From assembly GCA_937122485.1 (NCBI GenBank), contig CAKZKH010000123.1:1-38881 (forward strand): DNA of 38,881 bases. Direction: 5' to 3'. A program made the position numbers and the translations under genes. The notes under the pieces are model-generated. The model saw nothing but the letters and a program-made list of their open reading frames with translations. It did not search any database and was not told where the DNA came from. Positions within the stretch are counted from its first letter, which is position 1. The number at the start of each line of letters is the position of its first letter. This document shows positions 25,699 to 31,022 of this stretch, one piece after another. This DNA is from an uncultured bacterium. GTDB lineage: Bacteria > Bipolaricaulota > Bipolaricaulia > Bipolaricaulales > Bipolaricaulaceae.

Positions 25699-26210
25699 TG
25701 CCCAGTGTTACGACAGAGATTCTGCAGGAAGTGATCGATATCCGCCGGGTGGGGAAGGTCACCAAGGGCGGCAAGCGGTTACGGTTCCGGGTGGTGGTGG
25801 TGGCCGGGGATGGGGCCGGCCGGGTGGGCGTGGGGGTGGGAAAGTCCGTGGAAATCCCCCAAGCTGTCCAACAGGGCATCCGCGACGCCATGAAGCGGTT
25901 GGTCAACGTGCCTGTCCGGAACGGGACCATCCCCCATGAGGTGCGGGGCGAATTCGGGGCGGCCAAGGTCCTGCTCAAGCCTGCGTACCCCGGCACGGGG
26001 GTGATCGCCGGGCGGACGGTGGGGGCGGTGTGCCGAGTGGCTGGGATCAAAGACATTCTCACCAAGGCCCTGCGCTCCACCAACCCGCTGAATCTGGCCC
26101 GGGCCACCCTGGATGCCTTTGCCAAGCTGGAGAGCCCGGAGATGGTGGCGGCCCGCCGGGACAAGAAGGTCGAGGACATTGTGGAGGTCGAGGACGATGA
26201 GAATCGATAA
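25698..26210 (+). CDS. rpsE: 30S ribosomal protein S5
   Basis: A 170-residue protein important for decoding accuracy. KVTKGGKRLRFRVVVVAGDGAGRVGVGVGKSVEIPQAVQQGIRDAMK and GTIPHEVRGEFGAAKVLLKPAYPGTGVIAG are diagnostic. The following segment reads AGRTVGAVCRVAGI where AGGPVRAVLE.AGI is common, a minor variation. The start overlaps rplR by one base and the end overlaps rplO by 14, leaving no room for rpmD (L30). Confidence 0.98.
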   Translation: MPSVTTEILQEVIDIRRVGKVTKGGKRLRFRVVVVAGDGAGRVGVGVGKSVEIPQAVQQGIRDAMKRLVNVPVRNGTIPHEVRGEFGAAKVLLKPAYPGTGVIAGRTVGAVCRVAGIKDILTKALRSTNPLNLARATLDAFAKLESPEMVAARRDKKVEDIVEVEDDENR

Positions 26211-26661
26211 CCTGCGCCCCCGCCCAGGCAGCAAGAGGGGCCTCAAGCGGGTGGGCCGGGGTTACAGCTCCGGCCACGGGGGCCATGAGTCGGGCCGAGG
26301 CACCAAGGGGCAGAACTCCCGGTCCGGGGTCACGGTCCGGCCGGGATTTGAAGGGGGGCAAACGCCCTTCTGGATGAGGTTCCCCAAGCGGGGGTTTCAC
26401 AATCCCTCCCGGCAAGAGTTCACCGTGGTGAACGTGGCAGACCTGGAGCTGCGGTTCCAGGCTGGGGAAGAAGTGAACCCAACGGTTCTCCTCCAGCGCC
26501 GGGTGATCAAAAAGATGGACAGGGGCCTGAAAATTCTGGGGGGAGGGCAGTTGACCAAGGCGTTGGTGGTGAAGGCCCACGCCTTCAGCGCCATGGCCAA
26601 GGAAAAGATCGAGAAGGCCGGGGGTCAGGCCCTGGTCCTGGAAGCGACGAAGGAGGGCTAG
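26197..26661 (+). CDS. rplO: 50S ribosomal protein L15
   Basis: A 154-residue late-assembly 50S protein. LRPRPGSKRGLKRVGRGYSSGHGGHESGRGTKGQNSRSG, the GFEGGQTPFWMRFPKRGF segment and the terminal LTKALVVKAHAFSAMAKEKIEKAGG are complete. ATG 26197 lies inside the end of rpsE, after CGAGGACG. It directly follows S5 because L30 is missing. Confidence 0.97.
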   Translation: MRIDNLRPRPGSKRGLKRVGRGYSSGHGGHESGRGTKGQNSRSGVTVRPGFEGGQTPFWMRFPKRGFHNPSRQEFTVVNVADLELRFQAGEEVNPTVLLQRRVIKKMDRGLKILGGGQLTKALVVKAHAFSAMAKEKIEKAGGQALVLEATKEG

Positions 26662-29673: not shown

Positions 29674-30039
29674 ATGGCGAGGATTGCAGGGATCAACTTG
29701 CCGGCCAAGAAGAGGATTGAGGTGGCCCTGACGTACGTGCACGGGATCGGGAGGTCCAGGGCCCGGGAGGTCCTGGCCCGTACGGGGGTCAACCCCAACA
29801 CGAAGGTCATGGACCTCACGGAGCAGGAGGTGACCGCCCTGCGCAAAGAGGTGGAAGGGTTCACTGTGGAAGGGGACCTCCGCCGTCAGGTCAAGGGCAA
29901 TATCCAGCGGCTCATTGAAATTGGGTGCTACCGGGGTGTGCGCCACAAGGCGGGGCTGCCCGTTCGGGGACAAAAGACCCGCACCAACGCCCGCACCTGG
30001 AAGGGTCCGCGGCCGGCCAAGGCCGGGAAGAGGAAGTAA
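29674..30039 (+). CDS. rpsM: 30S ribosomal protein S13
   Basis: A 121-residue 30S head protein. [66 protein letters not shown] and a lysine-rich tail (KAGKRK) are the family pattern. Its TAA overlaps the rpsK ATG (TAATG). Confidence 0.98.
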
Positions 30040-30383
30040 TGGCGCAGGGAAAGAAAAAGGCGATTCGGCTGGATCGAGCTCGCGTGCATATCCACTCCAC
30101 CTTCAACAACACGATCATCACCTTGTCCGATCTCCAGGGGAACACGATCACCTGGCAGTCCGGGGGGACCGCGGGGTTCACCGGGTCGCGCAAGGGCACC
30201 CCCTATGCCGCTCAGCTGGCCACCCAAGCCCTGGTCCGTGAGCTCAAGGAGTTCGGAGTTCGCGCGGTGGTGGTGACTGTGGACGGGACCGGACCTGGGC
30301 GGCAGGCGGTGGTCCAGACCCTCCGTTCTTCCGATATCCAGGTGGAGGAAGTGCGGAACGTCACCCCGGTTAGCCACAGCTAG
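30039..30383 (+). CDS. rpsK: 30S ribosomal protein S11, lacking the conserved C-terminal tail
   Basis: A 114-residue 30S platform protein; the usual length is about 129. The body is normal: VHIHSTFNNTIITLSDLQGNTITWQSGG, GSRKGTPYAAQLA and VDGTGPGRQAVVQTLRSSDIQVEEVRNVTPVSHS. Bacterial S11 normally continues HNGCRPPKKRRV, but here the reading ends at SHS with a TAG at 30381-30383 and the rpsD ribosome-binding site starts at once. No frame nearby encodes the missing tail, so this is a real shortening rather than a frameshift. Confidence 0.97.
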   Translation: MAQGKKKAIRLDRARVHIHSTFNNTIITLSDLQGNTITWQSGGTAGFTGSRKGTPYAAQLATQALVRELKEFGVRAVVVTVDGTGPGRQAVVQTLRSSDIQVEEVRNVTPVSHS

Positions 30384-30392
30384 GAGGAGAGG

Positions 30393-31022
30393 ATGGCGCG
30401 GCACACGGGACCAAAATGCAGATTGTGCAGGAGGGAAGGGCAAAAGCTCCTGCTGCGGGGCGATCGGTGCTTTTCCGACAAGTGTTCCATGACCCACCGG
30501 GCCAAGATCCCTGGTCAGCATGGGCGTCTGCGGGCCCGGCGCCGGGCTACCCCCTACGCCATCCGCATCCGGGAGAAGCAGAAACTCAAGAGGATTTATG
30601 GGGTGCGGGAGGCCCAATTCCGCCGGTACGTGGAAGCGGCCAAGAAGTGGAAGGGGGTCACCGGCGAGGCCATCCTCAAGCTGTTGGAACGGCGGCTGGA
30701 CAACGTGGTGTACCGGGCAGGATTTGCCACCTCCCGGGACCACGCCCGGCAGCTGGTCACCCACGGGCACTTCCTCGTGAACAACCGGCACACCCGCATC
30801 CCCTCCATGCTCCTTCAAGAGGGGGACATGGTGGAGCTCCGGCCGGAGTCCCGGGCCAAGCTGAGGGAAGCCATTCGAGGGTGGGCGGAGCGCCGGCCCC
30901 TTCCCAGTTGGATCATGCGGGACCTGGAGGGGTTGAGGGTCCAGGTGGGGGCTGAGCCCAACTTGGAAGAGCTGGACCAGTCCGTGAACATGAGCTTGAT
31001 TGTGGAGTTCTACTCCCGCTGA
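30393..31022 (+). CDS. rpsD: 30S ribosomal protein S4, zinc form
   Basis: A 209-residue 16S assembly initiator. C9, C12, C26 and C31 form the zinc knuckle of the C+ form. The family segments IPGQHGRLRARRRATPYAIRIREKQKLKRIYGV, the S4 domain LERRLDNVVYRAGFATSRDHARQLVTHGHFLVN and the terminal SLIVEFYSR are present. AGGAGG is five bases ahead of the ATG. Confidence 0.98.
   Translation: MARHTGPKCRLCRREGQKLLLRGDRCFSDKCSMTHRAKIPGQHGRLRARRRATPYAIRIREKQKLKRIYGVREAQFRRYVEAAKKWKGVTGEAILKLLERRLDNVVYRAGFATSRDHARQLVTHGHFLVNNRHTRIPSMLLQEGDMVELRPESRAKLREAIRGWAERRPLPSWIMRDLEGLRVQVGAEPNLEELDQSVNMSLIVEFYSR

Follow-up and report, generated by a model that had tools for sequence, protein, structure and literature searches.

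Phylum-wide absence of the uS11 isoaspartate motif and basic tail in Bipolaricaulota, with a proposed rewiring of the contact to helix 23

The isoaspartate (isoAsp) motif of ribosomal protein uS11 is found in nearly all bacteria, chloroplasts and mitochondria and has counterparts in archaea and eukaryotes, and its role has been stated to be undefined (Watson et al. 2020, PMC7550191). In the window, which is the whole stretch of 38,881 nucleotides of contig CAKZKH010000123.1 analysed here, the rpsK gene of an uncultured member of the Bipolaricaulaceae ends before this motif is reached. The locus raises the question whether a genuine uS11 can lack the motif and the basic tail behind it, and what would then hold the protein to the 16S rRNA.

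The rpsK gene and its neighbours

The rpsK gene of the contig is located between rpsM and rpsD (Table 1), and the translation of its open reading frame ends with ...EEVRNVTPVSHS. A preliminary description of this DNA held that S11 stops before the tail NGCRPPKKRRV, which was borne out: the 114-residue protein closes with VTPVSHS and a TAG codon, and only positions 1-109 of the 117 positions of the profile TIGR03632 (uS11_bact) are matched. The score against this profile is 131.4 bits, which is below the full-length equivalog cut-off of 154.5 bits. The S11 body is nevertheless homologous over its length, being matched by the NCBIfam model PRK05309 (E 7.6e-39; 132.8 bits, above the cut-off of 111) and by Pfam PF00411 (106 bits). 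The proposed lack of space downstream was also confirmed. The stop codon is located at 30381-30383 and the ATG of rpsD at 30393, and in GCTAGGAGGAGAGGATG the Shine-Dalgarno sequence of rpsD overlaps the TAG, leaving no room for the tail. Moreover, an alignment to solved S11 chains places H113 at the E. coli-type H118 and S114 at the isoAsp position N119. The Asn-Gly site has indeed been lost, as the preliminary description stated, because S114 is followed by the stop, and neither Asn/Asp-Gly nor Asp-Ser/Gly/Thr occurs after the histidine. The claim that about ten basic residues are missing holds for the number of residues after the Asn position, but only about half of them are basic, and the Asn itself is replaced by Ser. 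Elsewhere in the window, uL30 (rpmD) is absent between rpsE and rplO (26200-26215), with the rplO frame starting right at the end of rpsE.

Table 1 Features of the rpsM-rpsK-rpsD region of the window
Feature	Position	Strand	Remark
rpsM (uS13)	29674..30039	+	complete; stop overlaps rpsK start (TAATG)
rpsK (uS11)	30039..30383	+	114 aa; last residue Ser114 corresponds to isoAsp N119 of E. coli
Asn107 codon of rpsK	30357-30359	+	Asn in place of an invariant Asp
VTPVSHS codons	30360..30380	+	His113 = E. coli His118; Ser114 = N119 position
TAG stop and rpsD Shine-Dalgarno TAGGAGGAG	30381..30392	+	overlapping; canonical tail does not fit before the rpsD start
rpsD (uS4)	30393..31022	+	complete, 209 aa

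Occurrence of the tail inside and outside the phylum

A profile search for S11 in 100 Bipolaricaulota/Acetothermia genomes yielded one match each in 96 of them, and the cut-off of TIGR03632 was reached by none of the 100. The source genome, which is 96% complete, also contains a single match. The other genomes of the family in which S11 was found, two of which consist of a single contig, share the last residue of the S11 of the window. The nearest named relatives (Candidatus Acetothermia/Bipolaricaulota) have S11 ends and downstream bases that are the same as or close to those of the genomes in the set, and the name given to the lineage is based on this resemblance. The motif [HY][ND]G was found in 0 of 120 Bipolaricaulota S11 loci (repeats included), and the tail GCRPPKKRRV is absent from every Bipolaricaulota S11 tail that was read. 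The isoAsp position is the exact end point of the protein in 44 of 89 distinct loci, mostly with the ending HS (two with YS, one with HN and one with HG), 4 further loci likewise end with HS, and the other 41 have unrelated ends of 4-11 residues (e.g. SKGRR, SSKVKR, SSERKR and SHSHSHT). TAG, TAA and TGA are all in use as rpsK stops in the phylum, the flanking sequences are variable, and in most genomes the rpsD start lies close to or overlaps the rpsK end. The tail and the Asn-Gly site are truly absent across the phylum, and their loss is not private to this genome. A member of another family ends with ...AHN and a stop, retaining the Asn and lacking the Gly, which is possibly an intermediate state.

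Outside the phylum, HNG or HDG together with the basic tail is kept in all 77 S11 loci that were returned from other groups, covering many phyla. The same holds for the profile matches in two larger samples, which exceeded the TIGR03632 cut-off and extended to profile position 116-117 in 99/99 cases for the phylum of Marinitoga and in 120/120 cases for the phylum to which an Acholeplasmatales genome belongs; many genomes of the latter sample are below 1 Mb. The near-universality assumed in the preliminary description is in agreement with the 77 loci read and with 219 of 219 profile matches. Given this conservation and the published distribution of the motif (PMC7550191), the absence in Bipolaricaulota is best read as a derived loss.

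Several other causes were considered and rejected. One was the loss of bS21: a search of 40 Bipolaricaulota genomes gave no bS21 match, but the same search gave none in some control genomes either, including Thermotoga maritima, so that the absence is not specific to Bipolaricaulota, and Thermotogota keep the tail. A loss of the isoaspartyl methyltransferase was dismissed because the enzyme family is present in 29/30 phylum genomes; the partner protein bS18 is present in 28/30. General genome reduction does not account for the loss because the reduced Mollicutes-type genomes retain the tail (120/120). Shine-Dalgarno sequences have not been abandoned, as the anti-Shine-Dalgarno is intact and TAGGAGG sequences are in use, and an altered meaning of a stop codon was rejected because all three stop codons terminate rpsK.

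The S11 body and its contact site in 16S rRNA

In E. coli, three consecutive purine-purine pairs form the surface against which isoAsp119 packs, and A718 is the stacking partner of His118 (PMC7550191), and in known ribosomes the kinked uS11 loop contacts and holds h23-24 (PMC9731571). By analogy with the structures from E. coli and the mitoribosome (PMC7550191, PMC9731571), the rRNA contacts of the tail would be lost in this lineage, as the preliminary description had proposed. Moreover, residues of the S11 body that are at least 85% conserved outside the phylum are replaced within it, among them E89 (by Q/N), R93 (by Q/N), D107 (by N) and P84 (by T/A/S). The loss of the acid at D107 beside the lost basic tail would fit a broken charge network.

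For the rRNA side, the 16S genes of 30 Bipolaricaulota were aligned with 19 outgroup sequences (E. coli and 18 others); a second outgroup search contributed sequences from five genomes only. All 30 Bipolaricaulota have C at position 718, whereas the outgroups have A (17), G (1) or U (1), that is, a purine in 18 of 19. Position 684 is A in all 30 as opposed to U in 19/19 outgroups, and position 715 is U in 22/30 as opposed to A in 19/19. Positions 707 (C in 29/30) and 722 (A in 30/30) also differ from the outgroups. The three purine-purine pairs are presumably 674.716, 675.715 and 676.714, a numbering taken from the sequence and general knowledge. On this numbering, the middle pair 675.715 has become a Watson-Crick A-U pair in 22/30 Bipolaricaulota, and 674.716 and 676.714 are still purine-purine.

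The changes are clustered. Of 827 positions that are at least 89% conserved outside the phylum, 16 are changed within it, and 6 of these fall into 673-723 (hypergeometric P 2.6e-5); with a threshold of 94%, 3 of 9 changes do so (P 0.005). Both P values are only indicative because the choice of the helix 23 interval followed the inspection of the changes. The base at position 718 is not by itself a predictor of tail loss, as a planctomycete outgroup combines U718 with a canonical S11 tail, although it has a very long branch and its sequence may be unreliable, and U715 is missing from 8/30 Bipolaricaulota that show the same tail loss. In a 16S tree calculated without the h23 region, Bipolaricaulota form one clade (100% SH-aLRT) on a long stem branch, and the tail loss and C718 therefore fall on the same branch. 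The central-pseudoknot positions 13/20/915 are mostly A/C/G in Bipolaricaulota (24/29, 29/29 and 30/30) as opposed to U/U/A outside, which looks like a covarying base triple.

Competing explanations and the place of the Bipolaricaulota uS11

With a probability of roughly 0.7, judged from sequence comparison, the protein is a genuine functional uS11 whose clamp and tail were lost once in the ancestor of Bipolaricaulota, with remodelling of helix 23 and of the S11 body. The isoaspartate clamp (HNG) and the basic tail (CRPPKKRRV) would have disappeared on the stem of the phylum, whose S11 chains now end at the isoAsp point or run on for a few unrelated residues. The matching changes in helix 23 are C718, U715, A684, C707 and A722, and the S11 body has lost the otherwise invariant residues E89, R93, D107 and P84. 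Most likely, the 30S platform would then be held by the remodelled S11-h23 interface, and the isopeptide bend would no longer be needed. The rRNA changes may thus compensate for the loss of the tail, and the ribosomes would be otherwise normal. As all changes lie on one stem branch, they count as one joint occurrence rather than as covariation that recurred, and the cause and the order of tail loss and rRNA change are inseparable by sequence.

The main rival is that the tail was lost neutrally, or by packing of the gene against rpsD, and that the helix 23 changes are unrelated drift that compensates for nothing. This is unlikely, albeit a serious competitor: there was one event on a long branch, phylum-specific 16S changes are also found far from S11 (13/20/915, 1080 and 1381), and the rpsD start is near or overlapping in most genomes. 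However, the changes at otherwise conserved positions concentrate in h23 and include the very nucleotide capped by His118, the strongly reduced Mollicutes-type genomes have kept the tail, and the many Bipolaricaulota that add 4-11 residues at this place never have the motif among them. Much less credible is the idea that stop readthrough or frameshifting produces a tail. Although the +1 frame after HS encodes the basic peptide RRRGWRGT in this genome, this is merely the Shine-Dalgarno sequence (AGGAGG) read as Arg-Arg, and in the relatives the frames behind the stop are not conserved, the stops differ (TAG/TAA/TGA), the flanks vary and NG never appears. Least probable of all, and next to negligible, is that the ending is an error of sequencing or assembly, or that this copy is inactive and a full-length rpsK lies elsewhere. 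The source assembly is a metagenome-assembled genome of 246 contigs, but the family relatives that were read, as well as two single-contig genomes, have the identical ending, which refutes an assembly error. Both escape routes named in the preliminary description are contradicted, as the comparison with related genomes that it had called for showed tail loss in every relative examined, which speaks against an indel, and a second S11 match was found in no genome.

We therefore return to the remodelled uS11 and its comparison with known systems. The Bipolaricaulota protein shares with other bacterial uS11 proteins (TIGR03632/PRK05309, E. coli) the place in the order rpsM-rpsK-rpsD-rpoA, the body and His118, but it has neither Asn-Gly nor CRPPKKRRV, and the E, R, D and P residues of the body are changed. 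Without Asn-Gly, the Asn for isoaspartate formation is missing. Archaeal and eukaryotic uS11 proteins belong to the same family and diverge from bacterial uS11 in the segment behind VTP; unlike Bipolaricaulota, they have retained an isoAsp motif of the form Asp-Ser/Gly/Thr (PMC7550191). The mitochondrial uS11m, which carries 1-methyl-isoAsp184, has the h23-24 contact region in common with the Bipolaricaulota protein, but the isoAsp has been kept in mitochondria although their ribosomes were rebuilt (PMC9731571). For an isoAsp-bearing uS11, His118 would be expected to stack on a purine at position 718 of the 16S rRNA, but all 30 Bipolaricaulota sequences have C. An exception in Bipolaricaulota uS11 was not described in the literature that our search could reach, which excluded most subscription papers.

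The contact of the uS11 tail is among the most conserved between proteins and rRNA, and Bipolaricaulota are a genuine exception to it as a whole phylum. Somewhat less firmly than the single ancestral loss, we favour the view that a coordinated rewiring of uS11 and helix 23 has replaced the isoaspartate clamp by a different protein-RNA interface. If this holds true, Bipolaricaulota would be the first phylum known to do without the uS11 isopeptide throughout, and they would be a natural test of what this part of the ribosome does. Moreover, the contact site offers defined substitutions in both rRNA and protein, which would make the purpose of the isopeptide directly testable in E. coli.
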